Below are positions 8,881-61,963 of a stretch of DNA of 64,000 bases, in pieces. The notes beneath the pieces are model-generated. The model did no database searches. It was not told the origin of the DNA and saw nothing but the letters and a program-made list of their open reading frames with translations. Position numbers and translations under genes: made by a program. Every line of letters begins with the position of its first letter. Position 1 is the stretch's first letter. The DNA is from Chondrosia reniformis (taxonomy: Eukaryota > Porifera > Demospongiae > Chondrillida > Chondrillidae): positions 1,364,001 through 1,428,000 of the forward strand of contig OX359190.1 in NCBI GenBank assembly GCA_947172415.1, in the 5' to 3' direction.

Positions 8881-8895
8881 ATGTCCGAAGATCAA
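8881..8895 (+). CDS. G2 exon 1: start exon, MSEDQ
   Basis: ATG TCC GAA GAT CAA followed by donor GTGAGT. Too short to detect by itself. It is chosen because the same ATG-donor arrangement recurs upstream of each Kelch exon and splices in phase 0 to the open Kelch exon. Confidence 0.6.
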
Positions 8896-11800
8896 GTGAG
8901 TTTATTCATTCATTCAGTTTCTCGTAGAAGTGGGCGTTACTATATAGACTCACAGTCGCTAACCTTTCACCGGTCAAAATGAGTTCAGTTTAATTTAGCG
9001 AACTACATGTTCTGCCAGTATATATGAAACTCGTTACAGCAAATAGTACCATTCAGCGCAGAAAATATCTAGTCAGGTCTTGTAGCGGATAATAGAAACT
9101 AGTTCAGTCTTTGAAATGCGTTCAACTCGTCAGATTGAAATAGTGGTATTACCCGAGAATTCTCTAACAGTCACACCTTTAGCTTTCAGAGACCCTTACC
9201 CAAAGTCTCTTTGTTTAGAATGCTGCGACACAGTTGGGTTATGCAAAACCTCGCTCAAACTAGCTAGCGAAATGCAACCTTGAGATTCGTAGGCTTCTAA
9301 GGAACACTTTAGAAAGCGAAGTATGCCGCTCATCCATATAGTGGCAGAATGTTTAACTGGTGCACGTTGAGGAGGTTCAGATTTATTAGACTATTAGACA
9401 GTAAACGCTGAAATGACTCTTTACATTCTGTTAAGTTGGACTTTGTACAAACAGACTGCATGATTTACAGACTGTAATAAACTGCTACTGAAAACTTACA
9501 TATCCGTGTGTGCTAATTTAGAGTTTCCAAGTAGACACGCTTCAATCAGTAAATGTTTCTTATCTCAATTAGATCTTTCGTAGTGACCTCCTCAGAGCTG
9601 GAGGAGGTCATTTTCTCAACTCCACCAATATCTCCAAAATGTTGTTTGGAGCATCCGATGCTAAAGCACTTGCACATCTTCCAAGTGTATTCGTCTATGG
9701 AGGATTATATCATACAGGAGGATCATATCATTATAGAACATCTGAACAGGTTCAGGTTTACAATGTTAATAACACCAAATGGTCAACGCTACCTCGACCT
9801 CCTCATTCTGAGAGTGGAGCAGCCATCATAGGAAACCAGTTTACTTTAATAGGAGGTGAAAAGACTCTTCGCATTCCTACAAACGATCTAGTGACGTGGA
9901 CAGGCAAAGAATGGAAAGTACTATATCCTCCAATGCACACCGCCCGATCCAGACCAGGTGTTCTTGCTATTGGAGACTTAGTAATTGTCTCTGGAGGAGA
10001 AGACACAATTGAATTCCTGGATGTTAACAAAAGAATATGGATACAGTCGAATCTGAAACTTCCTGGACCATTATCAGATCACCACATGTCATTGTGTCGT
10101 GAATACATTTACATCTACTGGTACTACTGGGGTGGATATTTTTGGAGAATGAATAAGAAGAATTTTATGGCTTCACTTACAACAAATGATGAACATCACT
10201 GGGAACAGCTCGAGAATGCACCAGAGGGCAGTTCACTATTACAATACAGCACACTACCAGTCGTAGTAGGTCCAAAAGGAATCTTCATTTTCGAGAAGAA
10301 GAAGTGGACACGAATTAGTGAAGAAACGTCTTATCACTACCCTTGTACGGCTTCCCTCAACGGAACTACGTTTCTCACCTTTGGAGGAGAACGTCAGACA
10401 AGAGCTGTACAGTACGACATTGCAGTTAAGGTTAGTAAACTCATTTAAATATTACAAGTCTTGTTAACATTCGTTGCGCGCTTCGCGTGAACTTTCTCCT
10501 TCAAATAGAAACATTAGAAGGTTTTATTTCCTTCGTTAGAGTCACCTAACTTGTGCGCTCAGTGTACACGAAGTGCGTGTCAATGTTAACAAGACTTGTA
10601 TTGCTTTAATAATGTTCTTGTAAGAGTGTGTTCTACGAACGCTCTCACGAGTTTAAGTGTTAACTTGTTTCCACTAATGAAGACTGTTAAGTCTTCTTGT
10701 TCTTTGCATTTGAAGTGAGAAAGTAGAGGAAAGCGTTTCAAGTATTATCCGCTGTAGTTAAACTGTTTATTATCGCGTACTACGTATACGTACGTATGTA
10801 TGTTAATTTATCGTCCTGTGAATGTTCGTGTGATTAGTTATAAGATGTTGGTAGTATAGAAATGTTAGTTGTAGACACGTTTAATAAACTACTTTCTAAC
10901 ACAACGATAGTTAACTGCTAGGCACGGAAGCGTCCCAAGGCGAAGTCGGCCATTTTGTTTTAGTATTCAATAAGTCTTAGCCTAATTTTTGGGCGCTGTT
11001 GTTTTTGTCTGTTTTTAAAAAAGATGCGAGTTGCCACGTTTTTAAATTATACAGTCTGTCTTGTTTAAAGTAAGTGAAAGGTAAACAGAAGTCAAATGAA
11101 TGTGTCAGTGAATGTTTAGAAGAGATGTCGGGTATTAACTGTATTATACTTGGCTGAATTGACTGTTCTCTAAAGATGCTTCTTGCTAGTTTTCCTAAAG
11201 CTAAGCATCACCAATAATATTGACTTACTGACTGAAATGTCAAAAGAATGTTTGTTTATAAACACAGACTGTCCCTTTGTGAGTAAACTATTGAAAAGTA
11301 ATTAATGTGAAGTTAGGCAATGACAATAATAAATGTGTAGCATTCACATGTAGCAATGGATCATCTAATTAATCAATACCCTATTCTACTCTTATTGATA
11401 AGAGTGTGATGGAAGATAAAGATCTGTATTTATGAACCTGTAAATGTTTTAATAAATAGTACAGCTACAGCCAAGTTGTGTTACATAACAAAGCTGTCTT
11501 GAAAGAGCCTTCAGAAGTTGTATCTAAATAGAATGTAATTCACACTTTGGATGGCTAAAGTAATTTGGATTAAAATTTTCCTGTTACTGTGACAATGGCT
11601 TACCTCCAAACGATAGTAAAACTGGCGTCTTTGAGTACAGCGAATAACAGGTCGAATTGATAAAGAAAACACCATTTAGGACACTCCATAGAGGACGTTA
11701 AAGTAGTTTCTAGTTGATCACATGTGAACTGTAGCAGGCGTTTGAGGAATAATAAACTGATAACCCTCAAATTAGGATAATGAAAAATTGAAACTGCTTA

Positions 11801-14800
11801 TTCATAGAATGACTTATTGGTGAGAATAGTCAATACTTCAAATATGTGAAGTGTGTATTACATTATAAACATATGCATATTATGTTTAATTACACTCAAT
11901 CTCAATTGTCCATGATAGCTACGTATCTCTTCTTGGTATACTATGCAGGAGCCAAAGTGGTATGGTCAAGCCATAGAAAGGCATGGCTCAGTTGAAGTGA
12001 GCATTAGTCGTGCAATCTTCACAGGAGGCTCGCGTGTTGGTAAAACCTCACTGAAGCACTACCTGCTCCACAACACAGCAAGAGAAGACAAAACTAGCAC
12101 TGGAGTGCTGGAAGCTCCTGAAGTGGCCACCATTGCTGGGGAGCAAGATATTAGGACAGGATTTGAGGAGGAAGGCCAGGGGAAGGAAGAGGAGTATGAT
12201 TTCATTAAAGGTTTAGCAGTTGGTTCTTCCTGGAAAGTTTTAACAGATGAAAAGCTAGGGCAGCTTATTTCAAAGATTAAAATGGAGGAAAGGGAGGTTT
12301 TTCCAGGCAGCACTCTAGAAACCCCACCTGCCTCTCCTCCACAGGCTACATCTAATGATACCACTTTAGCTGGCGATATTGCCAAGACAACCGAGATAGC
12401 CAGTGAGACGACCAAGCCACCAACCGACACCTCCATAACCCCTCCTCCTCCTAGCCATGATACCACTGAGGCTTTAGCAGTACAAGACCCACTGGAGCTG
12501 CTACAGAAAGCCAGGGACAGTTTCCTGCTAAAACACAATCTCTCCACTGAAGCAGAATTTGATGAAGAGAAGTGTACGTTCATTTACCTCCTGGACACAG
12601 GAGGCCAGCCCTCCTTTCAGAATGTCCTTCCACTCCTACTGGATTTTCCCTGCAACTTCTTACACATCTTTAAAGCTTCAGAGAGGTTGACCGATCCGTA
12701 CATCAATGCTTACTGTCAAGATGGAGTCACTGAAGTGGAGAGCACCAACAGCCGTTCAACCTGGGAATTGATGAAGGAGTCCATTACAGCTGCCTACACA
12801 ATGTCAATGAAGAGCAAGCGACAGTTGGAAGCATTTGACATGCCTAATGAGCCCAAACTTCGCATTTTCCTTGTTGGCACTCACCTTTCCCTTCTTCCCA
12901 AGGATCCTGAAGCTAAGAGAGCTCTACTGGACCACAACAGGAAGGTTCTAAAGGAAATGGACAACAAGCCCTATGACAGCAGCAGGGTATTCCCCCCAAA
13001 AGAGGTTGCCTACGAAGGTGCTGGTAGCTACTTTGTAGTGGACAGTCAGCTACAGGGAGACAGCCAACTGAAGGAGCACACTCGTAAAGCTGTAAATGTT
13101 CTTCGCTCTCTACTTTCAGATGCCAATAATCAATTAACACTGAAAGTTCCCAAAGTTTGGTTTTGCCTGCAACTAATCACATCTATCGCGAAAAAGAAGA
13201 TGTGGAAGTTCAAAGAAGTGAAAGAGTTTTGCATCCGATGCCAATTTATCCAAGGTGTAGATGCTGATGGACAGTTCCTTGTCCTGCTGAACCTGTTTCA
13301 CAGTCTTGGGTTCTATGTGTACTTTGATCTGAGTGAGTACAAAGAGCAGTGGATCTGTACAGATGCGACCTTTCTGTACAAGGAAATGTCCAAAGTGCTA
13401 TCGGTCCAGTATGGCCCAAGTGAATCTTCAAGTCCAGAGCTACGTAACTTAAGGAAAAGTGGAGAAATTCCTGAAGCAACTTCTGAAGATTTGCTTCGAC
13501 AGCTAGGCGTCAATGCTGATATTCCAACAAGATGGCTCCTGGAGGTCCTGGTTAAAATAGGTATTGCATCCAAAGTGACAAAGAAGAAGACACGCTACTT
13601 CATTCCAGCAGCCCTTCCTGAAAGGGAAATTAATCTCCCTGAACCATCTGTGGCCACTTTGGCATTCACTTTCTCATTCCATTCAGCATTTGAATATCAG
13701 AGGTACACCTGCATACCAACTGGTCTGTTCCACAGACTGGCCGTAGACATTGCAAGCAACCGACAGGCTCTTGAAGATCAGCAGATCAAGCAAGCATACA
13801 TCAGTGGAAGCCAGTGGGAGTACTGTCCCAGTCAATCTGACAGTACACAATTCTATTTCTCTCAAGACAATGCCCACATTGTCCTTTCCCAGAAGGAGGA
13901 CCTCATTCAGCTCCAACTGCTGGTTCCAGAAGACTTTCCTCAGCTTGGTCTCTCTTTGACTGAGCTCTGCAGGTGTATCAGAACGGAAGTAAAAGAGCGA
14001 ATTGCTTTCGTAAGTAAAGCCATTTTTGGAAGAGAGTTTTTAGCCCAAAGGGCTACTTTAGAGGATGGTGTCATTTGCCGTTACTGTGAGGGCTCCACTT
14101 TGCATCTTCTGCGATTTAAAGATGGCAACCAGAGAAAGGGTCTGTGTACGGGACGGAACAAAACGACTGTACTATCTCCAAGAGAGTCTGTTTGGGTTGC
14201 TAAGGAACAGGACAGCAACACCAATGTAAGTTTGCATAATATTATGTATTCAACAAAATAGTCCCTTATCACGAATGTAACAATTATTGACTGTATATTT
14301 TACATTCTAATCTTGCTGCTACTGACTCTATTTAATATGTTATTATTATTATTCTTTGGACACAAGTCATTTATTGATTTTTATATCTTCTGTATAGTTG
14401 AGTGTGGCTGGTAAAGTGAAATTTGATGGAGACCAGTTCCTTCTCTATAAAGACCAGACTACCTGTACTGGAGTACCTGAAGTTGTTGGACAGCCAACAC
14501 CATCTGCCAACTCGGGAGAGTGTGATGGTGAAGGAGGCAGTTGGAAGCAGACCTTACGGGCCAAACACTGGGTTTACCTTGTTGAAAACCTCGCCATTGG
14601 TAACATAGTCAATGAACTGTACCAGGGAGTGGGTGGAAAGCCACTAATTACAGACAAGGTGTACGATGAAATCAAAGCAGCAAAGAGCAGAGAAGAATCC
14701 AATGTAATCTTTCTCCGTCACCTCCTGAGTACTGGTACAGAGGAGACATTGAGGCTGTTTTGTAAAGTGCTTCAAGATACATCTGTAAAGTATCCGGTAC

Positions 14801-14829
14801 ACGAAGAGATTCTCCAGAAACTGCAATAG
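8881..14829 (+). CDS. G2: Kelch-Roc-COR-CARD gene
   Basis: Four exons: 8881-8895 (MSEDQ), 9573-10430 (Kelch), 11949-14225 (Roc-COR) and 14398-14829 (CARD-like with stop). All junctions are phase 0 with good GT-AG sites (GTGAGT, GTTAGT, GTAAGT donors), giving 1193 residues. It ends at TAG (14827-14829) because a 6-bp insertion (TAGCAA-like) interrupts the codons for KLQEDK present in G3. No Death domain exon follows. The Roc-COR exon is a mosaic: its 5' part is nearly identical to G1 and its 3' part to G5. Probable role as for G1; a regulated death-fold scaffold with a Kelch sensor is inference. Confidence 0.8.
8896..9572. other. G2 intron 1
   Basis: A 0.68-kb intron between start exon and Kelch exon, highly similar in G3-G5. 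It contains a minus-strand open frame of about 65 codons in some copies that is not preserved in all. I see no gene in it. Confidence 0.55.
9573..10430 (+). CDS. G2 exon 2: Kelch beta-propeller
   Basis: 286 codons after the CTCAATTAG acceptor. The ATG at 9639 is internal, because the 22 upstream codons (IFRSDLLRAGGGHF...) are open in the same frame. Kelch hallmarks recur: VFVYGG, FTLIGG, LVIVSGG, LTFGG, each followed downstream by a W (NTKWSTL, GKEWKVL, NKRIWIQ, EHHWEQL, KKWTRI), as expected for a propeller of five or six blades. Relative to its paralogues this copy has the longest first loop (LYHTGGSYHYRTSEQ) and a shortened VSGG-EDTIEF loop. Kelch propellers usually bind protein ligands. 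The exon ends AVK before GTTAGT. Confidence 0.82.
10453..10600. repeat. 148-bp inverted-repeat element in Kelch-Roc intron
   Basis: Ends TACAAGTCTTGTTAACA and TGTTAACAAGACTTGTA form a perfect 17-bp terminal inverted repeat. It starts about 22 bp after the Kelch donor. The same element, same length, sits at the same place in G3, G4 and G5. MITE or structured intronic RNA. Confidence 0.75.
10601..11948. other. Remainder of G2 intron 2
   Basis: Contains a second imperfect hairpin at about 10617-10651 (CTTGTAAGAGTGT / ACGCTCTCACGAG) and GAAGACT-GTTA-AGTCTTC at about 10679-10696. No coding signal. It is nearly identical to the matching G3 intron. Confidence 0.6.
11949..14225 (+). CDS. G2 exon 3: Roc GTPase plus COR domain
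   Basis: 759 codons, two fewer than G1. Walker A, DTGGQ, VGTHLS and the COR hallmarks are all present. The 5' part shares G1-specific residues (QATSNDTT in the linker). From about 12885 on it shares G5-specific ones (LDHNRKVLKEMDNKPYD, EDLLRQLGVNADI, VPEDFPQLGL, FVSKAIFG) and lacks the SHQN stretch near the end. Confidence 0.85.
14398..14829 (+). CDS. G2 exon 4: CARD-like domain, early stop
   Basis: 143 codons and stop. CARD-like helices as in G1. The frame closes at KLQ-stop: where G3 reads CTGCAAGAGGAC, this copy reads CTGCAATAGCAAGAGGAC, a 6-bp in-frame duplication that creates TAG. The core domain is complete, so the protein may still be functional. Confidence 0.72.
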   Translation: MSVAGKVKFDGDQFLLYKDQTTCTGVPEVVGQPTPSANSGECDGEGGSWKQTLRAKHWVYLVENLAIGNIVNELYQGVGGKPLITDKVYDEIKAAKSREESNVIFLRHLLSTGTEETLRLFCKVLQDTSVKYPVHEEILQKLQ

Positions 14830-15959: not shown

Positions 15960-15995
15960 GTAAGTTGTTTTGTAACACCTGATAATATTGGAATG

Positions 15996-16150
15996 CAGGG
16001 CTGCATATAGGGGGGGACTGGGATTGATTTTGCCCTCTAGACTTTTGGAAAGTTAAAATAAACTGCTTTGACACCCTCATACCATTGCCCCCCTAAATTT
16101 TGAAATTTTCATTTTGCCCCCTCTGGCCCCAAGTTCTGCATGCAGCCCTG
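15996..16150. mobile_element. MITE with CAGGGCTGCAT ends (hAT-like)
   Basis: Starts CAGGGCTGCAT and ends ATGCAGCCCTG. The flanks are GAATG on the left and TAATG on the right, a mutated form of the TAATG duplication seen at 28414. No coding capacity. Confidence 0.6.
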
Positions 16151-16556: not shown

Positions 16557-16581
16557 CTACAAGCTTAACTGTTTCCTGCAG

Positions 16582-20391: not shown

Positions 20392-20406
20392 ATGTCCAAA
20401 GATAAA
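20392..20406 (+). CDS. G3 exon 1: start exon, MSKDK
   Basis: ATG TCC AAA GAT AAA before GTGAGT. Same arrangement as the G2 start exon. Confidence 0.6.
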
Positions 20407-23400
20407 GTGAGTTTATTTATTCATTCAGTTTCTCGTAGAAGTGGGCGTTACTATATAGACTCACAGTCGCTAACCTTTCACCGGTCAAAATGAGTTCAGT
20501 TTAATTTAGCGAACTACATGTTCTGCCAGTGTAAATGAAACTCGTTACAGCAAATAGTACCATTCAGCGCATAAAATATCTAGTCAGGTCTTGTAGCGGA
20601 TAATAGAAACTAGTTCAGTCTTTGAAATGCGTCCAACTCGTCAGATTGAAATAGTGGTATTACCCGAGAATTCTCTAACAGTCACACCTTTAGCTTTCAG
20701 AGACCCTTGCCCAAAGTCTCTTTGTTTAGAATGCTGCGACACAGTTGGGTTATGCAAAACCTCGCTCAAACTAGCTAGCGAATTGCAACCTTGAAATTCG
20801 TAGGCTTCTAAGGAACAGTTTAGAAAGCGAAGTACGCCGCTCATCCATATAGTGGCAGAATGTTTAACTGGTGCGCGTTGAGGAGGTAAAGATTTAATAG
20901 ACTATTAGACAGTAAACGCTGAAATGACTCTTTACATTCTGTTAAGTTGGACTTTGTACAAACAGACTGCATGATTTACAGACTGTAACTCAAAGGTTTC
21001 TTGTAATAAACTGCTACTGAAAACTTACATATCCGTGTGTGCTAATTTATAGAGAGTTTCCAAGCAGACACGCTTCAATCAGTAAATGTTTCTTATCTCA
21101 ATTAGATCTTTCGCAGTGACCTCCTCAGAGCTGAAGGAGGTCATTTTCTCAACTCCACCAATATCCCCAAAATGTTGTTTGGAGCATCCCATGCTAAAGC
21201 ACTTGCACATCTTCCAAGTGTATTCGTCTATGGAGGATTATATGGAGGAACATCTGAACAGGTTCAGGTTTACAATGTTAATAACACTAAATGGTCAACA
21301 CTACCTCGACCTCCTCATTCTGAGAGTGGAGCAGCCATCATAGGAAACCAGTTTACTTTAATAGGAGGTGAAAACACTCGTGGCATTCCTACAAACGATC
21401 TAGTGACGTGGACAGGCAAAGAATGGAAAATACTATATCCTTCAATGCACACCGCCCGATCCAGACCAGGTGTTCTTGCATTTGGAGACTTAGTAATTGT
21501 CTCTGGAGGAGTAGGAGCAGATGGCAGTGTAGACACAATTGAATTTCTGGATATTAACAAAAGAATATGGATACAGTCGAATCTGAAACCTCCTCTACCA
21601 TCATACAATCACCACATGTTGGCATTGTGTGGTGAATACATTTACATCTACTACTACTGGGACAATGGATATTTTTGGAGAATGAATAAGAAGAATTTTA
21701 TGGCTTCACTTACAACAAATGATGAACATCACTGGGAACAACTCGAGAATGCACCAGGGGGCAGTTCACTATTACAATACAGCACCCTACCAGTCCTAGT
21801 AGGTCCAAGAGGAATCTTCATTTTCGAGAAGAAGAAGTGGACACGAATTAGTGAAGAAACGTCTTATCACTTCACTTGTACGGCTTCCCTCAACGGAACT
21901 ACATTTCTCACTTTTGGAGGAAGTGAAGGAGACTTTCAGACAAGAGCTGTACAGTACGATATTGCAGTTAAGGTTAGTAAACTTATTTAAGTATTACAAG
22001 TCTTGTTAACATTCGTTGCGCGCTTCGCGTACACTTTCTCCTTCAAATAGAAACATTAGAAGGTTTTATTTCCTTCGTTAGAGTCACCTAACTTGTGCGC
22101 TCAGTGTACACGAAGCGCGTGTCAATGTTAACAAGACTTGTATTGCTTTAATGTTCTCGTAAGAGTGTGTTCTACGAACGCTCTCACGAGTTTAAGTGTT
22201 AACTTGTTTCCACTAATGAAGACTGTTAAGTCTTCTTGTTCTTTGCATTTGAAGTGAGAAAGTAGAGGAAAGCGTTTCAAGTATTATCCGCTGTAGTTAA
22301 ACTGTTTATTATCGCGTACTACGTACGTACGTATGTATGTTAATTTATCGTCCTGTGAATGTTCGTGTGATTAGTTATAAGATGTTGGTAGTATAGAAAT
22401 GTTGGTTGTAGACACGTTTAATAAACTACTTTCTAACACAACGATAGTTAACTGCTAGGCACGGAAGCGTCCCAAGGCGAAGTCGGCCATTTTGTTTTAG
22501 TATTCAATAAGTCTTAGCCTAATTTTTGGGCGCTGTTGTTTTTGTCTGTTATTAAAAAGAAGAGAGTTGCCACGTTTTTAAATTATACAGTCTATCTTGT
22601 TCAAAGTAAGTGAAAGGTAAACAGAAGTCAAATGAATGTGTCAGTGAATGTTTAGAAGAGATGTCGGGTATTAACTGTATTATACTTGGCTGAATTGACT
22701 GTTCTCTAAAGATGCTTCTTGCTAGTTTTCCTAAAGCTAAGCATCACCAATAATATTGACTTACTGACTGAAATGTCAAAAGAATGTTTGTTTATAAACA
22801 CAGACTGTCCCTTTGTGAGTAAACTATTGAAAAGTAATTAATGTGAAGTTAGGCAATGACAATAATAAATGTGTAGCATTCACATGTAGCAATGGATCAT
22901 CTAATTAATCAATACCCTATTCTACTCTTATTGATAAGAGTGTGATGGAAGATAAAGATCTGTATTTATGAACCTGTAAATGTTTTAATAAATAGTACAG
23001 CTACAGCCAAGTTGTGTTACATAACAAAGCTGTCTTGAAAGAGCCTTCAGAAGTTGTATCTAAATAGAATGTAATTCACACTTTGGATGGCTAAAGTAAT
23101 TTGGATTAAAATTTTCCTGTTACTGTGACAATGGCTTACCTCCAAACGATAGTAAAACTGGCGTCTTTGAGTACAGCGAATAACAGGTCGAATTGATAAA
23201 GAAAACACCATTTAGGACACTCCATAGAGGACGTTAAAGTAGTTTCTAGTTGATCACATGTGAACTGTAGCAGGCGTTTGAGGAATAATAAACTGATAAC
23301 CCTCGAATTAGGATAAACTGCTTATTCATAGAATGACTTATGGGTGAGAATAGTCAATACTTCAAATATGTTAAGTGTGTATTACATTGTAAACACATAT

Positions 23401-37531: not shown

Positions 37532-37549
37532 ATGTCGGCCATAGATAAA
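37532..37549 (+). CDS. G4 exon 1: start exon, MSAIDK
   Basis: ATG followed by five codons and GTGAGT. One codon longer than in G2 and G3 and identical to G5. Confidence 0.6.
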
Positions 37550-47517: not shown

Positions 47518-47805
47518 TAATGTAAGCATATTATTATTTGTAAGTATTGACTTTGTGGGGCAAAGTCAAAAAGCTGTTTCAGAGAAAGTCAACAACAGTG
47601 CAGTCTGATGTCTCTCCCATATTATTATTTGTATGTAAACAAGTACAGATTGAAGTGTTACTTCAACTGACAAACACTTTATGACAGTTAAACTTTGTAA
47701 TCTTTATCATAATATGCAATCTACTGATCAGTCCCGATTAGAAGAAACAGCTGTCTATGGCTAGATTCTCATTTTATAACAGTTTAGATAGTACCTAGAC
47801 TTCGC

Positions 47806-47976
47806 CTGTCTATGGTGGTCGCCTGTCTATGGCGGTTGCCTGTCTATGGCGGTCGCCTGTCTATGGCGGTCGCCTGTCTATGGCGGTCGCCTGTCTATGG
47901 CGGTCGCCTGTCTATGGCGGTCGCCTGTCTATGGCGGTCGCCTGTCTATGGCGGTCGCCTGTCTATGGCGGTCACT
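47806..47976 (+). repeat. 17-bp minisatellite before AGMO exon A, copy 4
   Basis: About ten units of GCCTGTCTATGGCGGTC. Confidence 0.9.
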
Positions 47977-47999
47977 AGAAGCTTAACTGTTTCCTGCAG

Positions 48000-51815: not shown

Positions 51816-51833
51816 ATGTCGGCCATAGATAAA
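51816..51833 (+). CDS. G5 exon 1: start exon, MSAIDK
   Basis: Same as the G4 start exon; donor GTGAGT. Confidence 0.6.
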
Positions 51834-54800
51834 GTGAGTTTATTTATTCATTCAGTTTCTCGTAGAAGTGGGTGTTACTACATAGACTCGCAGTCGCTAA
51901 CCTTTCACCGGTCAAAATGAGTTCAGTCTAATTTAGCAAACTACATGTTCTGCCAGTATATATGAAACTCGTTACAGCAAATAGTACCATTCAGCGCAGA
52001 AAATATCTAGTCAGGTCTTGTAGCGGATAATAGAAACTAGTTCAGTCTTTGAAATGCGTCCAACTCGTCAGATTGAAATAGTGGTATTACCCGAGAGTTC
52101 TAGAGCAGTCACACCTTTAGCTTTCAGAGAAACTTGCCCAAAGTCTCTTTGTTTAGAATGCTGCGACACAGTTGGGTTATGCAAAACCTCGCTCAAACTA
52201 GCTAGCGAAATGCAACCTTGAAATTCGTAGGCTTCTAAGGAACACTTTAGAAAGCGAAGTACGCCGCTCATCCATATAGTGGCAGAATGTTTAACTGGTG
52301 CACGTTGAGGAGGTTCAGATTTAATAGACTATTAGACAGTAAACGCTGAAATGACTCTTTACATTCTGTTAAGTTGGACTTTGTACAAACAGACTGCATG
52401 ATTTACAGACTGTAACTCAAAGGTTTCTTGTAATAAACTGCTACTGAAAACTTACATATCCGTGTGTGCTAATTTATAGAGAGTTTCCAAGCAGACACGC
52501 TTCAATCAGTAAATGTTTCTTATCTCAATTAGATCTTTCGCAGTGACCTCCTCAGAGCTGGAGGAGGTCATTTTCTGAAATCCCGGAATATCCCGGAAAT
52601 GTTAACTGCAACATCCTTTACTAAAGCACTTGCATATCATCAAAGTGTCTTCGTCTATGGCGGAACATCTGAAAAGGTTCAAGATTACGATGTTAAGAAC
52701 ACTAAATGGTCAAGACTACCTCGACCTCCTCATTATCACAATGGAGCAGCCATCATAGGGGACCAGTTTACTTTAATAGGAGGTGAAGACACTCATCGCA
52801 TTCCTACAAACAATCTAGTGACGTGGACAGACAAAGAATGGAAAGTACTATATCCTCCAATGCACACCGCCCGAGCCTTTCCAAGTGTTCTTGCATTTGA
52901 AGACTTAGTAATTGTCTCTGGAGGAATAGGAGCAGATGGCAAAGAAGTAGACACAATTGAATTCCTGGATGTTAACAAAAGAATATGGATACAGTCGAAT
53001 CTGAAACTTCCTGAACCATTATCAGATCACCACATGGCATTGTGTGGTGAATACATTTACATCTACTACATTGGATCTTTTTGGAGAATGAATAAGAAGA
53101 ATTTTATGGCTTCACTTACAACAAATGATGAACATCACTGGGAAGAGCTCGAGGATGCACCAGAGGCAAGTTCACTATTACAATACAGCACACTACCAGT
53201 CATAGTAGGTCCAAAAGGAATCTTCATTTTCGAGAAGAAGAAGTGGACACGAATTAGTGAAGAAACGTCTTATCACAACAATTGTACGGCTTCCCTCAAC
53301 GGAACTACATTTCTCACATTTGGAGTACATCGGACAAGAGCTGTACAGTACGACATTGCAGTTAAGGTTAGTAAACTCATTTAAGTATTACAAGTCTTGT
53401 TAATATTCGTTGCGCGCTTCGCGTACACTTTCTCCTTCAAATAGAAACATTAGAAGGTTTTATTTCCTTCGTTAGAGTCACCTAACTTGTGCGCTCAGTG
53501 TACACGAAGCGCGTGTCAATGTTAACAAGACTTGTATTGCTCTAATGTTCACGTAAGAGTGTGTTCTACGAACGCTCTCACGAGTTTAAGTGTTAACTTG
53601 TTTCTACTAACGAAGACTGTTAAGTCTTCTTGTTCTTTGCATTTGAAGTGAGAAAGTAGAGGAAAGCGTTTCAAGTATTATCCGCTGTAGTTAAACTGTT
53701 TATTATCGCGTGCTACTCACGTACGTATGTTTATTTCTCGTCCTGTGAACGTTCGTGTGATTAGTTATAAGATGTTGGTAGTACAGAAATGTTGGTTGTA
53801 GACACGTTTAATAAACTATTTTCTAACACAACGAGAGTTAACTGCTAGGCACGGAAGCGTCCCAAGGCGAAGTCCGCCATTTTGTTTTTAGTATTCAATT
53901 AGTCTTAGCCTAATTTTTTGGGGCGCCGTTGTTTTTGTCTGTTATTAAAAAAGAAGAGAGTTGCCACGTTTTTAAATTATACAATCTGTCTTGTTCAAAG
54001 TAAGTGAAAGGTAACAGAAGTCAAATGAATGTGTCAGTGAATGTTTAGAAGAGATGTCGGGTATTGACTGTATTACTTGGCTGAATTGACTGTTCTCTAA
54101 AGATGCTTCTTGCTAGTTTCCTAAAGCTAAGCATCACCAATAATATTGACCTACCGACTGAATTGTCAAAAGAATGTTTGTTTATAAACACAGACTGTCC
54201 CTTTGTGGGTAAACTATTGATAAGTAATTAATGTGAAGTGTTAGGCAATGACAATACTCAATGTGTAGCATTCACATATAGCAATAATAATCAAGACCCC
54301 ATTCTACTCTTATTGATAAGAGTGTCATGGAAGATAAGATCTGTATTTATGAACCTGTAAATGTTTTAGTAAATAGTACATCTACAGCCAAGTTGTGTTA
54401 CATAACAAAGCTGTCTTAAAAGAGCCTTCAGAAGTTGTATCTAAATAGAATGTAATTCACACTTTGGATGGCTAATGTAATGTGGATTAAAATTTTCCTA
54501 TTTCTGTGACAATGGCTTACCTCCAAACGATAGTAAAACTGGCGTCTTTGAATAGAGCGAATAACAATTGGAACTGATAAAGAAAACACCATTTAGGACA
54601 CTCCATAGAGGACGTTAAAGTAGTTTCTAGTTGATCACATGTGAACTGTAGCAGGCGTTTGAGGAATAATAAACTGATTACCCTCAAATTAGGATAATGA
54701 AAAATTGAAACTCCTTATTCATAGAATGATTTATTGGTGAGAATAATCAATACTTCAAATATGTTAAGTGTGCATTACATTGTAAACACATGCAATTGTC

Positions 54801-57800
54801 CATGATAGCTACGTATCTCTTCTTGGTATACCCCATGCAGGAACCAAAGTGGTATGGTGAAGCCATAGAAGGACATGGTTCAGTTGAAGTGAACATTAGC
54901 CGTGCAATCTTCACAGGAGGCTCGCGTGTTGGTAAAACCTCACTGAAGCACTACCTGCTCCACAACACAGCAAGAGAAGACAAAACTAGCACTGGAGTGC
55001 TGGAAGGTCCTGAAGTGGCCACCATTGCTGGGGAGCAAGATATTAGGACAGGATTTGAGGAGGAAGGCCAGGGGAAGGAAGAGGAGTATGATTTCATTAA
55101 AGGTTTAGCAGTTGGTTCTTCCTGGAAAGTTTTAACAGATGAAAAGCTAGGGCAGCTTATTTCAAAGATTAAAATGGAGGAAAGGGAGGTTTTTCCAGGC
55201 AGCACTCTAGAGCCCCCACCTGCCTCTCCTCCACAGGCTACATCTGATGATACCACTTTAGCTGGCGATATTGCCAAGACAACCGAGGTAGCCATTGAGA
55301 CGACCAAGCCACCAACCGACACCTCCATAACCCCTCCTCCTCCTAGCCATGATACCACTGAGGCTTTAGCAGTACAAGACCCACTGGAGCTGCTAGAGCA
55401 AGCCAGGGACAGCTTCCTGCAGAAGCACAATCTCTCCACTGAAGCAGAATTTGATGAAAAGGAGTGCACGTTCATTTACCTCCTGGACACAGGAGGCCAG
55501 CCCTCCTTTCAGAATGTCATTCCACTCCTACTGGACTTTCCCTGCAACTTCTTACACATCTTTAAAGCTTCAGAGAGGTTGACCGATCCGTACATCAATG
55601 CTTACTGTCAAGATGGAGTCACTGAAGTGGAGAGCACCAACAGCCGTTCAACCTGGGAATTGATGAAGGAGTCCATTACAGCTGCCTACACAATGTCCAT
55701 GAAGAGCAAGCGACAGTTGGAAGCATTTGACATGCCTAATGAGCCCCAACTTCGCATTTTCCTTGTTGGCACTCACCTTTCCCTTCTTCCTAAGGATCCT
55801 GAAGCTAAGAGAGCTCTACTGGACCACAACAGGAAGGTTCTAAAGGAAATGGACAACAAGCCCTATGACAGCAACAGGGTATTCCCCCCAAAAGAGGTTG
55901 CCTACGAAGGTGCTGGTAGCTACTTTGTAGTGGACAGTCAGCTACAGGGAGACAGCCAACTGAAGGAGCACACTCGTAAAGCTGTAAATGTTCTTCGCTC
56001 TCTACTTTCAGATGCCAATAATCGATTAACACTGAAAGTTCCCAAAGTTTGGTTCTGCCTGCAACTAATCACATCTATCGCAGAAAAGAAGATGTGGAAG
56101 TTCAAAGAAGTGAAAGAGTTTTGCATCCGATACCAATTTATCCAAGGTGTAGATGCTGATGGACAGTTCCTTGTCCTCCTGAACCTGTTTCACAGCCTAG
56201 GGTTCTATGTGTACTTTGATCTGAGTGAGTACAAAGAACAGTGGATCTGTACAGATGCGACCTTTCTGTACAAGGAAATGTCCAAAGTGCTATCGGTCCA
56301 GTATGGCCCAAGTGAATCTTCAAGTCCAGAGCTACGTAACTTAAGGAAAAGTGGAGAAATTCCTGAAGCAACTTCTGAAGATTTGCTTCGACAGCTAGGC
56401 GTCAATGCTGATATTCCAACAAGATGGCTCCTGGAGGTCCTGGTAAAAATAGGTATTGCATCCAAAGTGACAAAGAAGAAGACACGCTACTTCATTCCAG
56501 CAGCCCTTCCTGAAAGGGAAATTAATCTCCCTGAACCATCTGTGGCCACTTTGGCATTCACTTTCTCATTCCATTCAGCATTTGAATATCAGAGGTACAC
56601 CTGCATACCAACTGGTCTATTCCACAGACTGGCCGTGGACATTGCAAGCAACCGACAGGCTCTTGAAGATCAGCAGATCAAGCAAGCATACATCATTGGA
56701 AGCCAGTGGAGGTACTGTCCCAGTCAATCTGACAGTACACAATTCTATTTCTCTCAAGACAATGCCCACATTGTCCTTTCCCAGAAGGAGGACCTCATTC
56801 AGCTCCAACTGCTGGTTCCAGAAGACTTTCCTCAGCTTGGTCTCTCTTTGACTGAGCTCTGCAGGTGTATCAGAACGGAAGTAAAAGAGCGAATTGCTTT
56901 CGTAAGTAAAGCCATTTTTGGAAGCGAGTTTTTAGCCCAAAAGGCTACTTTAGAGGATGGTGTCATTTGCCGTTACTGTGAGGGCTCCACTTTGCATCTT
57001 CTGCAATTTAAAGATGGCAACCAGAGAAAGGGTCTGTGTACGGGACGGAACAAAACGACTGTACTATCTCCAAGAGAGTCTGTTTGGGTTGCTAAGGAAC
57101 AGGACAGCAACACCAATGTAAGTTTGCATAATATTATGTATTCAACAAATAGATATTATCACAAATGTAATGTAACATTTATTGATTGTATATTTTACAT
57201 TCTAATCTTGCTGCTACTGACTCTATTTAATATGTTATTATTGTTATTATTTGGACACAAGTAATTTATTGATTTTTATATCTTCTGTATAGTTGAGTGT
57301 GGCTGGTAAAGTGAAATTTGATGGAGACCAGTTCCTTCTCTATAAAGACCAGACTACCTGTACTGGAGGACCTGAAGTTGTTGGACAGCCAACACCATCT
57401 GCCAACTCGGGAGAGTGTGATGGTGAAGGAGGCAGTTGGAAGCAGACCTTACGGGCCAAACACTGGGTTTACCTTGTTGAAAACCTCGCCACTGGTAACA
57501 TAGTCAATGAACTGTACCAGGGAGTGGGTGGAAAGCCACTAATTACAGACAAGGTGTACGATGAAATCAAAGCAGCAAAGAGCAGAGAAGAATCCAATGT
57601 AATCTTTCTCCGTCACCTCCTGAGTACTGGTACAGAGGAGACATTGAAGCTGTTTTGTAAAGTGCTTCAAGATACATCTGTAAAGTATCCGGTACATGAA
57701 GAGATTCTCCTTCTTCTTTCAAGTGTTGATATTTTCTGTAAGATCCTCCGACAAACCTCAAGAGACTATGAGGTACATGAAGAAGTGGCTGACAGACTGG

Positions 57801-60800
57801 AAGGGGACACCAGAATATGGGTAGGTCCTTACACTTCAGAATATGGGTAGGTCCTTACACTTCAGAATATGGTAGGTCCTTACACTTCAGAATATGGTAG
57901 GTCCTTCAGGTACACTTTTAGCATACATATTTTTGATGTTTGTTGGTGATTACTTGTGGTTTGATTATCACTTTAATCTCACATGCTGTTATGTACCTTC
58001 CTGTGAATGTTCAAAAGTGTATTACTTGGCTGAATTGACTGTTCTCTAAAGATGCTTCTTGCTAGTTTCCTAAAGCTAAGCATCACCAATATTATTGACC
58101 TACTGACTGAATTGTCAAAGAATGTTTGTTTATAAAGACAGACGGTCCCTTTGTGGGTAAACTATTGTTTATTGTCAATCTTTTAAGGTAATGTAAGAAA
58201 GTGTTAAAACTACATTGTCATTTAGGAGTTACTTAATATTATGTATCAATTGCTTTGTTAGAGTTCTCTAGTGTCTGGTTCTGAGTCACTGGATCCAAAA
58301 GAACCTGGTGAATCCTCCTCTCATGAACTCACTACTGGTAAAAGTTCTTCCCATGGTGCAAGAGACAATTATATTAAAGGTAAGTAAGGAATGAAAGGTG
58401 CCTAGTGTTACAAACTGCATTATGTACATATGTGTGCAATACATTAATTATTTACGTATCTCTACAGTGTATGGGTCCTAAATAATCTCTTATGTATGAG
58501 TACTGCATGCTTCTGTTACATTGTCTAATTCACAGAGCATGAAGAACAACTAGACCAGCTGTGTTGGATCCCATTTGGGATACAGTCTCTTCAAGTAGAC
58601 CAAACTGGAGGAAGGTTCAGTTTGGAACCAGATGGGGACACACTGGTGGAGAGTGACGTCACTCATCTGGAGGTACCAGAGGGAGCTGTTTGTGAGAAGA
58701 GGAAGGTGCAGATTAGATATGGTATTATAATGGATGGACCTCTGGTGGCACCAGATGGTTATAAACTGGCCAGCCCCGTGGTGTACATCCACTACAACAG
58801 TAAAGACATCAAGAGTCCCATCACCCTCCACCTTCCTCACTGGAGCGCAGATGGTGACAAAGTAAAGATGATGGTGGCACCTCATTCTCCTGTGAATAAA
58901 GAGTTCACATTTGAAGACTATGAAGGGACAGGTAATGGCAGGGATTTCCTCCTCACTGGACACTGCACCCTCTTTACTAAAGCTTCACGTTTAAATGATC
59001 CATCTGTGTATCTGGCTTCTGCTTGGAAGTGGGAGTCAAAGGATACTAGTATAACCACACGAATAGCTGCTACTTACAAACATAATGTTTGGATCCAGGT
59101 TTGTGTTTTCTTTTTATAGAAATGTTTTCTAGTTTTACTTAACTTATGTGCATCCTCTAGATATTAGAAAAGCATTGGACAGTTTTTAGCAGAGTTGAAC
59201 AGTCTTGTCAATTCAAATTTTTGGAAGGGGGAGAAACATTGAAGTGTAAGCTGGAGCCTGGTTGCCATGGTGTAATTACTGGACCTTCACAGGTTAGTAG
59301 TACACAGGATTCCATATACTGTACAACTACATGTAATAGTTTAAAATGGATGTGTTTTGAGGAATTTCAATGACTATTGCTGTATGGTGTACGTATATAA
59401 CTTAAAAGGAGTAAATAAATGTATTATCATCCAAATTTAACTAATATTAATTCCCTTAATAGAATAAGGATTCTTCTAACTGCCTCAAACTTATCATGTA
59501 GTTGGACCATCTTTCGACTTGCAGAGCATCTAAAGATGCTTTGCTTTATTTTTGCTATAATAAATTAATATTTAGGTTGACCTGCCTTAAAATACACTGA
59601 AATCTCCATTTGAAGGACACCTTGAATATGCTGGTCATTTACCTAAAGGATTTGTAATCTACATACGTAAATCATTTTGCTTCTAATTTAGTCTGTCCTT
59701 TAAGGTGAATTGTATGTATAGCCCTCTTATTATACATACGTATGTAGTTAAAGAGGTCACCAACTAAGATATACAAAATTCACATTAGGAATGCAAAACT
59801 TATACTTTTGAAAATTTTGAGTGTATACGTCTTCCTTTAGAATGTGATATAACTAGCAACATGCATGTGTTTCCGTTCGCTTATTTAGTATCATGGATTG
59901 GCCTTGTATTGTGTATACAGATTGAGAAGGAAGATATTGTGTATCAAATTGGAAATAAAGAGAAATTAAAAGATGACTTTAAAGCGAATATGTATCCCCC
60001 ATTTCTCACTCTTGTACCAAATTGTGGGTCCATTTCTAAAGATCCACCTTATGAAAATATGTCTCTACAAGGAGTTACATCTATTGACAGTTTCAGTTTT
60101 CATTGTAATCTTTCTACAAATATAAAAGGTAAGTTGTAATTTGTTTGATCTGTCAATTAGTTTCTCTTAAAATCTACATCTGTTGCATATAGGTTTAACC
60201 TTCAAGGATGATTCAGGAGCTAAAGCTCTAACAAGACATCAGCAAGGTATCCTATATACGTATGTGAAATATATAATACGCCATTTTCCTACATGCTATG
60301 CCTATGCTTTGGATGAATCTCTTTCTTCTTCTGCTCCACTGGGCCAGACAGCTGTTTCTAGGAATTCCACCCTTCATCATTGGCCCTGGGAATCTTTGTC
60401 TTTTTCTTGTTATTTATCTTGGTCATGCATTCTTCAATGCGTTTATTGACCCTATTCTCTACCTGGGGGTCCTGCAATGCATAACTATACAATTCATGCA
60501 TGTACGTAAGTAGAATTTAAAGGCAATTTAAAGATAGCAACGGTGAGTGCATATTCACTAACACATCTGTTGCATAACATTTTAAGTTTATTACATAATG
60601 ATTTATATGTCTTTGTGTATTCATATGTAGATGCCAGTTGTGAATGGAGAACGGTAATACAACTCCATCATAGGGTCTACCTGCTGGAGAATCTCTGTAT
60701 CAAAGAGATTACCAACCAACTCTTGCAAGGAGTGGATGGAACACAGCTAATTACAGATGACATTTATCAGAGGATCAATCATGCTGTAACCAAGAAAGAT

Positions 60801-61963
60801 GCAAATGAAATCTTCTTGGAACATTTGAGAAGTAAAACACTTTCCAGTGTTGATATTTTCTGTGAGATCCTCCGACAAACCTCAAGAGACTATGAGGTAC
60901 ATAAAGAAGTGGCTGACAGACTGGAAGGGGACACCAGAATATGGGTAGGTCCTTACACTTCAGAATATGGGTAGGTCCTTACACTTCAGAATATGGGTAG
61001 GTCCTTACCCTTCAGAATATGGGTAGGTCCTTACACTTCAGAATATGGTAGGTCCTTACCCTTCAGAATATGGTAGGTCCTTACACTTCAGAATATGGGT
61101 AGGTCCTTACACTTCAGAATATGGTAGGTCCTTATATACTTCAGAATATGGGTAGGTCCTTACACTTCAGAATATGGGTAGGTCCTTATATATTTCAGAA
61201 TATGGCACACATATTTTTCCTTCTCATGATGTTTGTCGGTGATTACTGGTTTGTTTATCACTTTGATCTCACATGTGTGCTGTTATGTACCTTCCTATAT
61301 TATCTCTATTTATTATTTAATGCATTAGGGAGATCAGCCTTTGAGATCAAGAAAATCAAGTGAGTTTTAAACAGATATACATGTACGTATAGGTTGCTAT
61401 ATGACAGATGTACAAAGTAATGTGTTCAATTTATAGTACCTGTAACGTTTACATTGTCACCATTTTGTACGATTCATAGGATCCTGTGAACCAGACAAAT
61501 CAAAACAAGCCATGGACACCAACCTACCAATGCCAGTTACACCAGTTGGTAAGGAGGAAAGCAATTTACTTTACTTTGTTTGTGGATGCGTCCAAAACTC
61601 ACATTCTCACATTCTTTGGACACATGCATTCATTTTCCAATGTACAGTGTTACATTTGGTATGTATAATATACATGTATCTGTAGCTGAGGACAGCTTGC
61701 AACAGAGAGTGACTATTTGCCAACTTCAAGATGTAGCTGATTCTGAAGCTGTCACCAGGTGGAAACCAGTGTGCAGACGTTTAGGAGTTAGAAGGGACAT
61801 CTTTGCAGAGGCAGAAAAAGCTAATTCAAACGATCCATCTGAAGCCTTTGTCACAGCCTTGGAGTCATGGCATGATGAACAAGGAGATAAAGCTACAGTT
61901 TCTGTCCTTGTTGAAGCACTGGAGAAGAGTGGATTTAATGAAGTGGCCAAATCACTCAAGTAG
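51816..61963 (+). CDS. G5: Kelch-Roc-COR-CARD-ZU5-CARD-Death gene
   Basis: Thirteen exons: 51816-51833, 52533-53366 (Kelch), 54841-57117 (Roc-COR), 57293-57820 (CARD), 58262-58379, 58536-59098 (ZU5), 59161-59292, 59921-60128, 60193-60246, 60631-60944 (CARD type 2), 61329-61359, 61480-61548, 61686-61963 (Death, stop). Every junction is phase-consistent and the sum is 5424 bp, exactly 1808 codons with stop. Known relatives share parts: DAPK1 (Roc-COR-Death), PIDD1 and UNC5 (ZU5-Death), but I know of no described protein with this full order. Expected to be cytoplasmic: no signal peptide or membrane segment was seen. Activity and partners are unknown. Confidence 0.8.
51834..52532. other. G5 intron 1
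   Basis: Paralogue of 8896-9572. No gene seen. Confidence 0.5.
52533..53366 (+). CDS. G5 exon 2: Kelch beta-propeller
   Basis: 278 codons. The most divergent loops of the set: VYGGTSEKVQDYD, PPHYHNGAA for PPHSESGAA, GGEDTHRIPTNN, SGGIGADGKEVDTIEF, ARAFPSVLAFED, YIYIYYIGSFW, APEASSL, SYHNNCTA and FGVHRTRAV, in which even the final GG doublet is replaced. Confidence 0.82.
53389..53536. repeat. 148-bp inverted-repeat element, G5
   Basis: Same element as at 10453. One change in the left arm (TTAATATT). Confidence 0.72.
53537..54840. other. Remainder of G5 intron 2
   Basis: Paralogue of the other Kelch-Roc introns, ending in acceptor TACCCCATGCAG. A part of it (about 54070-54210) recurs at 58017-58168. 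Confidence 0.55.
54841..57117 (+). CDS. G5 exon 3: Roc GTPase plus COR domain
   Basis: 759 codons, with P-loop GGSRVGKT, DTGGQ, VGTHLS and COR hallmarks intact. The 3' two-thirds are nearly identical to G2. The frame stays open upstream and downstream of the exon by chance; splice sites define its limits. Confidence 0.85.
57293..57820 (+). CDS. G5 exon 4: chimeric CARD type 1 / type 2
   Basis: 176 codons. CARD type 1 runs normally to VKYPVHEEIL and then joins (about 57712) the last third of CARD type 2 (SSVDIFCKILRQT ... ADRLEGDTRIW). The last two helices of the fold are thus present twice. The donor GG-GTAGGT is that of CARD type 2. Confidence 0.75.
57811..57907 (+). repeat. 26-bp splice-donor minisatellite, short array
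   Basis: Three to four units of the CAGAATATGG-GTAGGTCC repeat, following the chimeric CARD exon. Confidence 0.85.
58017..58168 (+). repeat. Relocated piece of Kelch-Roc intron
   Basis: From TATTACTTGGCTGAATTGAC to GGGTAAACTATTG the sequence repeats part of the intron upstream of the Roc exon (54068-54219). It is now inside the intron after the CARD exon. Confidence 0.85.
58262..58379 (+). CDS. G5 exon 5: S/E-rich linker
   Basis: 39 codons plus one base, SSLVSGSESLDPKEPGESSS and on. Acceptor CTTTGTTAG, donor GTAAGT. Low-complexity; no domain. Confidence 0.65.
58536..59098 (+). CDS. G5 exon 6: ZU5 domain
   Basis: 187 codons. ZU5 hallmarks in order: TGGRFSL, a segment ending VTHLEVPEGAV, KVQIRYGIIMDG, KLASPVVYIH, ITLHLPHWS. 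ZU5 domains occur in ankyrins, UNC5 and PIDD1, where they pack against UPA and Death domains and control them. Not found in G1-G4 in this window. Confidence 0.8.
59161..59292 (+). CDS. G5 exon 7: conserved region after ZU5
   Basis: 44 codons, phase 0 both ends (EKHWTVFSRVEQSCQFKF, then CKLEPGCHGVITGPSQ). Position suggests a UPA-like or family-specific domain; not identified. Confidence 0.65.
59293..59920. other. G5 intron 7
   Basis: AT-rich, no repeat recognised and no exon seen. Confidence 0.55.
59921..60128 (+). CDS. G5 exon 8: conserved region continued
   Basis: 69 codons plus one base (IEKEDIVYQIGNKEKLKDDF, then YPPFLTLVP), acceptor TATACAG, donor GTAAGT. Same unidentified region as exon 7. 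Confidence 0.65.
60193..60246 (+). CDS. G5 exon 9: short linker
   Basis: 54 bp, phase 1 in and out (LTFKDDSGAKALTRHQQ). Donor GTATCC is weaker than the others. Confidence 0.55.
60281..60430 (-). mobile_element. Degenerate retroelement 3'-end fragment
   Basis: CCATTTTCCTACATGCTATG, then the TCTTCTGCTCCACTGGGCCA and GACAGCTGTTTCT parts, matches the 3' region of the 27206 element with internal loss. Lies in G5 intron 9. Confidence 0.6.
60631..60944 (+). CDS. G5 exon 10: CARD-like domain, type 2
   Basis: 104 codons, paralogue of 43196-43509 with a few substitutions (HHRVYLLENL, EILRQT, HKEVADRL). Phase 1 in, 0 out. Confidence 0.72.
60935..61206 (+). repeat. 26-bp splice-donor minisatellite, G5 second array
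   Basis: About ten units of CAGAATATGG-GTAGGTCCTTACACTT with one-base losses and a TATATACTT variant. It starts at the exon 10 donor. Confidence 0.9.
61329..61359 (+). CDS. G5 exon 11: 31-bp micro-exon
   Basis: GDQPLRSRKS plus one base. Identical to the G4 micro-exon. Confidence 0.65.
61480..61548 (+). CDS. G5 exon 12: linker exon
   Basis: SCEPDKSKQAMDTNLPMPV region, phase 1 in and out. Confidence 0.68.
61686..61963 (+). CDS. G5 exon 13: Death domain and stop
   Basis: 92 codons with stop. Death-domain pattern LQDVADSEAVTRWKPVCRRL, GVRRDIFAEAE, AFVTALESWHDEQ, TVSVLVEALEKSGF, ending NEVAKSLK-stop. It is the unbroken version of the exon that is frameshifted in G4 and deleted in G3. Confidence 0.8.

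Follow-up and report, generated by a model that had tools for sequence, protein, structure and literature searches.

According to the accessible text of a review of Roco proteins, the structures flanking Roc-COR in the LRR-Roc-COR-kinase group of Dictyostelium and metazoans include the Kelch motif (PMC6320773), so Kelch beside Roc-COR is not unheard of. Regarding variable receptors with comparable parts, the available sections of the respective papers describe the LRR-ROC-COR genes of brown algae as candidate immune receptors in which Roc-COR goes with a repeat sensor and positively selected sites lie on the ligand side (PMC11378527; Zambounis et al. 2012 cited there), and the fungal HNWD NLRs het-d and het-e as having a hypervariable propeller, a positively selected interaction surface and exchange between members (PMC12222747, PMC4986451). 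These brown-algal LRR-Roco genes and fungal NLRs with hypervariable propellers are the nearest analogues of the family described here, a tandem array of genes that join a Kelch exon, a Roc-COR exon and death-fold exons in the kidney sponge Chondrosia reniformis, a demosponge. The window, that is the whole stretch of 64,000 nucleotides analysed, is C2:1364001-1428000 of a genome of 117,379,552 bases in 15 contigs. The matches listed from the open-access literature included no tandem Kelch-Roc-COR repertoire with CARD output and a selected face, and no report of this sponge family.

We found four complete genes (B to E) and one partial gene (A) in the window, and the joined models of B to E read through, which confirms the original prediction of a Kelch-Roc-COR-death-fold family. 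As read from the sequence, the one-protein architecture and the local array are well supported, because of the splice phases, a Kelch-Roc order kept in 67 of 71 cases, a junction codon that closes the Roc frame in 7 of the 16 further copies, and genes D and E being in frame to the stop; from this we infer that these genes are spliced in vivo. Furthermore, four features go beyond that prediction: a ZU5 exon, a second CARD in gene E, the genome-wide extent of the family, and a Kelch propeller that is hypervariable on one face only, the face of the BC and DA loops.

Genes of the array and the Kelch-Roc junction

The features are given below by their position in the window; where no other basis is named, the row rests on the gene model.

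1423..3705, + strand: gene A (5' part outside the window), Roc-COR exon; acceptor atgcag/GAG, donor AAT/gtaagt
3877..4332, + strand: gene A, CARD exon and stop; 93.5% amino-acid identity to the gene E CARD over 139 amino acids (alignment A1)
8881..8895, + strand: gene B, exon 1 (MSEDQ); ATG../GTGAGT, phase 0
9573..10430, + strand: gene B, Kelch exon; Pfam Kelch, AlphaFold2 (AF2) model with pLDDT 91.6
11949..14225, + strand: gene B, Roc-COR exon; phase 0 at both ends, profile matching Roc-COR proteins of solved structure
14398..14829, + strand: gene B, CARD exon and stop; Pfam CARD 16.9 bits, sub-threshold, model without internal stop
20392..20406, + strand: gene C, exon 1 (MSKDK)
21106..21972, + strand: gene C, Kelch exon; homology to other copies and gene model
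23459..25738, + strand: gene C, Roc-COR exon; splice junctions and gene model
25904..26371, + strand: gene C, CARD exon and stop
37532..37549, + strand: gene D, exon 1 (MSAIDK)
38247..39080, + strand: gene D, Kelch exon
40564..42846, + strand: gene D, Roc-COR exon; splice junctions and gene model
42978..43107, + strand: gene D, linker exon, matching the 5' portion of the CARD exon found in other copies; phase 0 to 1
43196..43509, + strand: gene D, CARD exon of the CARD-b type; phase 1 to 0, Pfam CARD 18.8 bits (below the cut-off)
44012..44042, + strand: gene D, linker exon
45258..45326, + strand: gene D, linker exon
45459..45712, + strand: gene D, Death exon, shorter at its end than that of gene E (1 TAA)
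51816..51833, + strand: gene E, exon 1 (MSAIDK)
52533..53366, + strand: gene E, Kelch exon
54841..57117, + strand: gene E, Roc-COR exon; splice junctions and gene model
57293..57820, + strand: gene E, first CARD exon, a mosaic that matches the CARD-b exon at its 3' end; Pfam CARD 17.9 bits (below the cut-off)
58262..58379, + strand: gene E, linker exon
58536..59098, + strand: gene E, ZU5 exon; Pfam ZU5 24.7 bits, 81-91% identical exons on other chromosomes
59161..59292, + strand: gene E, exon after ZU5 (UPA position); gene model, UPA not found by Pfam
59921..60128, + strand: gene E, exon after ZU5 (UPA position); gene model, UPA not found by Pfam
60193..60246, + strand: gene E, linker exon
60631..60944, + strand: gene E, second CARD exon; 23.6 bits for the open reading frame alone, best CARD stretch of the joined protein
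61329..61359, + strand: gene E, linker exon
61480..61548, + strand: gene E, linker exon
61686..61963, + strand: gene E, Death exon with the stop; the open reading frame scores 45.7 bits for Death

The genes have a tiny exon 1, a Kelch exon and a Roc-COR exon, followed by CARD; the Kelch exon of the partial gene A lies at C2:1362868-1363746, 1676 nucleotides upstream of its Roc-COR exon. Gene D adds Death, and gene E adds ZU5, a second CARD and Death, its domain order being Kelch, Roc, COR, CARD, linker, ZU5, two exons at the UPA position, CARD, linkers and Death. The joined models encode 1193 amino acids in gene B, 1209 in C, 1310 in D (8 exons) and 1807 in E (13 exons), with no internal stops. 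Behind the CARD stop of gene C there is a non-coding remnant of a Death-side exon (alignment A1).

The start at 8881 is ATGTCCGAAGATCAA followed by GTGAGT, which gives a first exon of 15 nucleotides. We surveyed 30 Kelch loci, including genes B to E of the window, and inspected 900 bases upstream of each: a mini-exon of the form ATGT[CG]../GT[AG]AGT was present in 25 of them and in 5 there was none. Its length was 9 (2 loci), 12 (1), 15 (15) or 18 nucleotides (7), a multiple of three in 25 of 25, and the Kelch donor was GTTAGT in 28 of the 30 loci.

In genes B to E the 3' end of the Kelch exon is GCAGTTAAG/gttagt in phase 0 and the Roc-COR exon enters after atgcag/, again in phase 0. The Roc-COR exon in turn ends with AACACCAAT/gtaagt in phase 0, and the next exon opens tag/TTGAG in the same phase. 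The Kelch-Roc junctions that had been predicted at 10430/11949, 21972/23459, 39080/40564 and 53366/54841 are of the GT..AG type, and in each of the four genes both sides of the junction are in phase 0.

The order of the exons was then read genome-wide, using the best 60 of 208 candidates for full-length Roc (13 second pieces were dropped from 73 rows before counting), the best 150 of 151 for a shorter Roc query, the best 136 of 207 for Kelch (137 rows, from which three second pieces were dropped, the remainder being 104 close and 30 distant) and the best 150 of 193 for CARD. A Roc match was called close at 82% identity or more over nearly the whole shorter query, and there were 71 such matches. 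A Kelch exon lies upstream on the same strand within 10 kb in 67 of them (66 distinct Kelch exons), and in 1 of the 75 other Roc matches, which is a 63-residue fragment (83% identity) with one stop. Among the best full-length Roc matches 59 of 60 have a same-strand Kelch upstream, 613 to 7341 nucleotides away with a median of 1857. Within 7.4 kb no opposite-strand Kelch was found upstream of any of the 60, and a same-strand Kelch was found downstream of 10, as expected for neighbours in an array. The pairing of Kelch and Roc is not due to chance. Downstream of the 60 Roc matches there is CARD in at least 59 cases, Death in at least 11 and ZU5 in at least 2, counts that drew on 91 of 150 CARD, 13 of 59 Death and 4 of 46 ZU5 rows.

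A reader of these exons could nevertheless take Kelch and Roc-COR for separate neighbouring genes, which we consider highly improbable. Such a reading would agree with the stop that the Kelch frame has of its own past the donor, where it ends VSKLI-stop as originally described, and with the ATG at the Roc acceptor: the Roc frame does open M-Q at ..ATGCAG/G in the window genes, and ATGCAG stands before the Roc exon in 10 of 10 near copies in which the acceptor was read. Nevertheless, this opening is not general, as ATGCAG was found in 3 of the 16 further Kelch-paired copies, which are mostly more divergent. The AG itself is kept immediately before the Roc exon in 15 of these 16 and lies one codon earlier in L071; in L063 and L064 an AG one codon earlier may be the acceptor used. 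Furthermore, in 7 of the 16 copies the junction codon is TAG while the acceptor is kept, and therefore the Roc frame is closed there; L049 likewise has TAG. The constant strand and order in 67 of 71 matches, the gaps of the 59 pairs and the phase 0 that both sides share in the four genes read also argue against separate genes. What weighs against the fusion is that 9 of the 16 further copies, like the near ones, leave room for an in-frame Met upstream of the Roc exon within the short stretch that was read, that a close Roc is missing downstream of 38 of the 104 related Kelch exons, and that 4 of the 71 close Roc matches have no Kelch. One of these four is L059, which says little about the fusion because there is no Kelch upstream of it.

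Domain membership

Regarding the domains named in the original prediction, Kelch, Death and, in the joined gene E protein, CARD came out above the Pfam cut-offs, and Roc and COR-A stayed below them as single sequences (cut-offs in bits: Kelch_1 20.1, Roc 27, COR-A 35.3, CARD 23.9, Death 22.6, ZU5 21). Kelch_1 was matched by the window sequence at 25.8 bits and the domain is a six-bladed Kelch propeller. Its AF2 model is a confident propeller (pLDDT 91.6, pTM 0.90) near the Kelch domains of LZTR1, NS1-BP and Keap1; the VIA-align matches listed for it are Kelch domains and Kelch designs, and do not address other folds.

The Roc-COR assignment comes from a wider alignment of 29 rows to which homologues were added (A4). 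Its seven best PDB matches are of the Roc-COR type, with E-values of 3.1e-6 to 1.2e-4, and comprise 4wnr (listed as Leucine-rich-repeat protein), 3dpu, 6hlu and 8r4b (listed as Rab family protein), all four of which we take to be prokaryotic Roco proteins, and three LRRK1 entries. Profile positions 333-662, with COR directly after Roc, align to 4wnr, 3dpu, 6hlu, 8r4b and LRRK1. The Roc model was matched in 18 of the 29 members at E<=0.05, the match in P0064 and P0093 being to an extra N-terminal GTPase, and COR-A was matched in 12 of 29, in P0095 above the cut-off with 48.9 bits. The P-loop GGSRVGKTS and the G3 motif DTGGQ are present in all five window rows of the array-only alignment A3.

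Several results weigh against this assignment. A single window sequence stays below the cut-offs, with 16.1 bits for Roc and 21.3 for COR-A; the array-only profile A3 found no Roc-COR structure in the PDB, its best match being Ypt7 at E 0.47; and the AF2 model of Roc-COR failed (pLDDT 31.1) and was not used. The assignment to the Roco proteins rests on A4, in which the rows P0094, P0095 and P0097 were already annotated as COR, and therefore the profile is not independent of the Roco name. Finally, G4 is THLS in all 13 rows of A3, where the wider alignment has THxD as its consensus, and the binding of guanine may therefore be altered. THxD is a property of active Roc and does not define the family.

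In the joined gene E protein Death (40.1 bits) and CARD (30.7) are above the Pfam cut-offs, whereas ZU5 (20.1, just under 21), COR-A (19.0) and Roc (13.9) are sub-threshold. On four exons alone, those of genes B and D and both of E, CARD scored 16.9-23.6 bits, all below the cut-off. UPA gave no Pfam match in the joined gene E protein, including the two exons at the UPA position. The PIDD-type ZU5 has an H-F-S/P cleavage motif, and this motif was not seen in the ZU5 exon of gene E. Neither NACHT nor NB-ARC had a Pfam match in the window exons or in the joined gene E protein, and a scan of viral contigs gave no relative. By its domain content the encoded protein is a Roco protein and not an NLR, although it may work like an NLR.

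A 26-bp minisatellite is found at 43500-43867, 57811-57906 and 60935-61205. It starts at the CARD-exon donor ATATGG/GTAGGT and therefore many of its units repeat a donor-like site; these could serve as alternative splice ends.

The variable Kelch face and its possible role

The rates of nonsynonymous (dN) and synonymous (dS) change were obtained as pairwise NG86 counts. From the Kelch set we left out L013, which has a stop, four rows that repeat genes of the window itself (L009, L010, L023 and L038) and another five, distant rows. The 30 close-clade copies of the Kelch exon had a mean dN of 0.099 and a mean dS of 0.093, a ratio of 1.06, and the ratio for Roc-COR was 0.40 (five window copies) and 0.37 (eleven copies). 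When the Kelch sites were pooled by position in the propeller, dN/dS was 1.84 in the DA loops, 2.34 in the BC loops and 2.06 in both together (column bootstrap 1.41-3.15), and 0.67 in AB, 0.68 in CD, 0.49 in strands and other residues and 0.52 (0.35-0.81) in all positions outside DA and BC. Furthermore, 34 of the 39 columns with an entropy of 1.5 bits or more fall in BC or DA loops. The Kelch propeller is thus variable on the face that, in the available part of the KLHL20 work, shapes the substrate surface through its BC and DA loops, the bound DAPK1 peptide contacting every one of the six DA loops and all but one of the six BC loops (PMC6720452).

The loop classes, set from the DSSP string and Kelch topology, were not drawn blind, as the variable columns had been seen before, and for this reason control tests were run. 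In 327 circular shifts of the labels only the shifts of one and two columns reached the observed ratio, and with gap-free columns only, dN/dS was 1.81 in DA and BC versus 0.52 elsewhere. Apart from the order in which the classes were set, it speaks against selection on this face that the whole-exon ratio is 1.06 in the 30 copies and 0.88 in the five window-side copies, that with coil residues only the contrast shrinks to 1.68 (DA and BC) versus 0.85 (other coil), and that the ratios are pairwise counts and not a likelihood test, with recombination present. Regarding the latter, none of 1000 permutations gave neighbouring Kelch sites as little incompatibility as was observed, which points to recombination or gene conversion among copies.

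These changes could also come from a relaxed or decaying tandem repeat, with mostly non-functional copies and Kelch change as lost constraint. Of the 137 Kelch rows 9 have listed stops, as do 2 of the 73 Roc rows, the Death exon of gene D is truncated and the spacers have deletions, all of which would fit decay. Nevertheless, relaxation brings dN/dS to 1 at most, which does not account for a value of 2.06 on one face of an exon that has 0.52 in its remaining positions; Roc-COR is near 0.4 and most rows have no listed stop. We therefore regard decay as very unlikely.

We consider that the best explanation, and a probable one, is a repertoire of cytosolic receptors with a sensor, a switch and a death-fold end. 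Each unit would encode one such receptor, whose six-bladed Kelch propeller would bind a ligand through the BC/DA-loop face. Binding would alter the nucleotide or dimer state of the Roc-COR GTPase, and this would expose or cluster the C-terminal CARD, together with ZU5, a second CARD and Death in certain copies. The death-fold end could then recruit death-fold partners and start a response of the inflammatory or cell-death type. The copies would arise by tandem duplication and gene conversion, diversifying selection would alter mainly the ligand face, and exon shuffling would swap the output end. The original prediction had compared the genes to intracellular immune receptors, and this interpretation is partly supported: the one-protein architecture and the array stand, and the receptor logic is strengthened by the amino-acid excess restricted to the ligand face and by the recombination signal among copies, while an immune or non-self role, like GTP switching and death-fold signalling, is still something that we infer.

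Alternatively, the genes might form a non-immune adaptor family, in which Kelch faces bind changing endogenous partners, for example for degradation or for the control of developmental cell death. BTB-Kelch propellers bind substrates with the same BC/DA-loop face (PMC6720452, in its available part) and the LZTR1 Kelch has been solved bound to RAS-type GTPases (entry titles 9mez, 9mf0, 9mey). However, Pfam found no BTB or other E3 domain in the joined gene E protein, and in the models only an exon of 3-6 residues precedes Kelch. Moreover, endogenous partners would rarely drive strong diversifying selection across dozens of paralogues, and we hold an adaptor role to be improbable.

As a variant of the receptor repertoire, the Kelch faces might read polymorphic self markers on other sponges or cells and the death-fold end might drive rejection, as in fungal het genes, so that the system would serve allorecognition and not defence. 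The face-restricted change, the recombination and the tandem copies fit this equally. According to the available sections of two sources, het-d and het-e are NLRs with hypervariable WD40 propellers that recognise HET-C allelic variants (PMC12222747), and sponges are among the animals with allo-incompatibility (PMC8195603). On the other hand, more than 60 genes would exceed the need of a simple recognition system, and one haplotype was read; we rate this variant as unlikely, although less so than the adaptor family.

Relatives elsewhere and comparison with known systems

The ZU5 exon of gene E is shared with other chromosomes. Full-length copies of ZU5 with 81-91% identity to that of gene E are on C11, C8, C7 and C10, and C2 has four full-length copies (that of gene E included), two fragments near 7.05 Mb and one 47% partial copy. 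Moreover, gene E has a mosaic first CARD exon, the end of which corresponds to the other CARD type. The ZU5 exons 81-91% identical to that of gene E form clusters at C11:1.36-2.28 Mb and C8:2.61-2.69 Mb, and a similar downstream frame is present in the ZU5 region L052.

Related Kelch exons were also found beside other domains in neighbouring frames: a CARD and a protein kinase (60.4 bits) in L047 (C7:2.867 Mb), a protein kinase frame of 163.1 bits in L045 (L044 and L045 being at C14:0.60-1.14 Mb), an AIG1-type GTPase and a CARD-like frame in L042 and L043 (C7:6.02-6.12 Mb; 29.6 bits in L042, and 23.7 bits in L043 against a cut-off of 23.9), and long EGD-type repeats in L046. The neighbourhoods with a kinase, an AIG1-type GTPase or CARD and kinase are possible further types of Kelch receptors. 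Tentatively, and with clearly less confidence than in the receptor repertoire as such, we suggest that the sponge may have evolved a large intracellular repertoire in which a hypervariable Kelch face (two loops per blade) senses, Roc-COR replaces the ATPase of NLRs, exons for Kelch, GTPase, kinase and death folds recombine across chromosomes, and the chromosome 2 array would be a main immune or allorecognition complex.

Elsewhere on C2, at 1.87-2.18 Mb (L051), 22 related Kelch exons stand in one block in which close Roc is absent, and a Death domain (31 bits) lies downstream of the single Kelch exon inspected there. The 75 further Roc matches are on C10, C4, C6, C13, C3, C8 and others, many of them clustered.

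Regarding the spacers between the genes, a set of exons encoding MDKCDHW and a coiled coil is found at 46598-47327, with copies in C, D and F (F 62803-63527), placed after the genes. We rejected these exons (46598, 46790 and 47245 in E) as the 5' end of the Kelch gene, since the Kelch exon is reached in phase only via a second AG, which is lost in L019, since the set has a stop in E, is split in D, damaged in C and mostly gone in B, and since there are only 24 rows (22 places) genome-wide; the exon at 8881 fits better. The set is probably a separate decaying gene that is carried along. Between these exons and Kelch, at 47987-50620 and in the matching spacers of A, B, C and F, there is an FA_hydroxylase fragment (Pfam 43.2 bits, cut-off 31), which presumably resembles the C-terminal half of alkylglycerol monooxygenase; gene D lacks the stretch matching about 47786-50310. 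The extended spacer of gene D has an open frame of 323 amino acids at 34728-35699 with no Pfam match.

Comparing the family with known systems, proteins of the PIDD/UNC5 type are ZU5-Death proteins. Gene E likewise has ZU5 and then Death, and it differs by the Kelch-Roc-COR part in front and by having no Pfam match to UPA. The animal Roco protein DAPK1 also has Roc-COR followed by Death, as described in the accessible text of the Roco review (PMC6320773). However, it has an N-terminal kinase and ankyrin repeats, with no Kelch and no CARD. NG1 and NG3, described as novel immune genes of Actiniaria, likewise encode animal Roc/COR proteins with immune-type domains (TIR, death), although their partners are LRR or kinase and they have TIR, and the word 'kelch' is absent from the main text of that paper as available (PMC5094078). 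The TRADD-N expansions of amphioxus and Amphimedon are, in the portion of the paper at hand, lineage-specific in marine animals and combine a death fold with a variable propeller (WD40, in amphioxus), with the TRADD-N adaptor and not Roc-COR in the centre (PMC8195603).

The two nearest analogues differ in their parts. In the brown-algal genes the sensor is LRR, each shuffled exon carrying a single repeat, and LRR-ROC-COR is their sole reported domain structure, as far as the available text states (PMC11378527), whereas the sponge genes have a Kelch propeller in a single exon and an output of CARD, ZU5 or Death. In the fungal HNWD genes the switch is that of an NLR (STAND-type), the propeller is WD40 and selection acts at four positions of near-identical repeats, according to the accessible sections (PMC12222747, PMC4986451); the sponge genes have a Roc-COR switch and Kelch, with selection on the BC and DA loops of divergent blades.

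The family is a concrete and testable candidate for the large and variable repertoire that a sponge may use for intracellular recognition. It also provides natural variants of Kelch in which the differences lie mainly on the ligand face, and it would place a Parkinson-related GTPase module (Roc-COR, as in LRRK2) in a receptor context under strong selection. The plan of sensor, NTPase switch and death fold would here have been reached with other parts, Kelch taking the place of LRR or WD40 and Roc-COR that of NACHT or NB-ARC.

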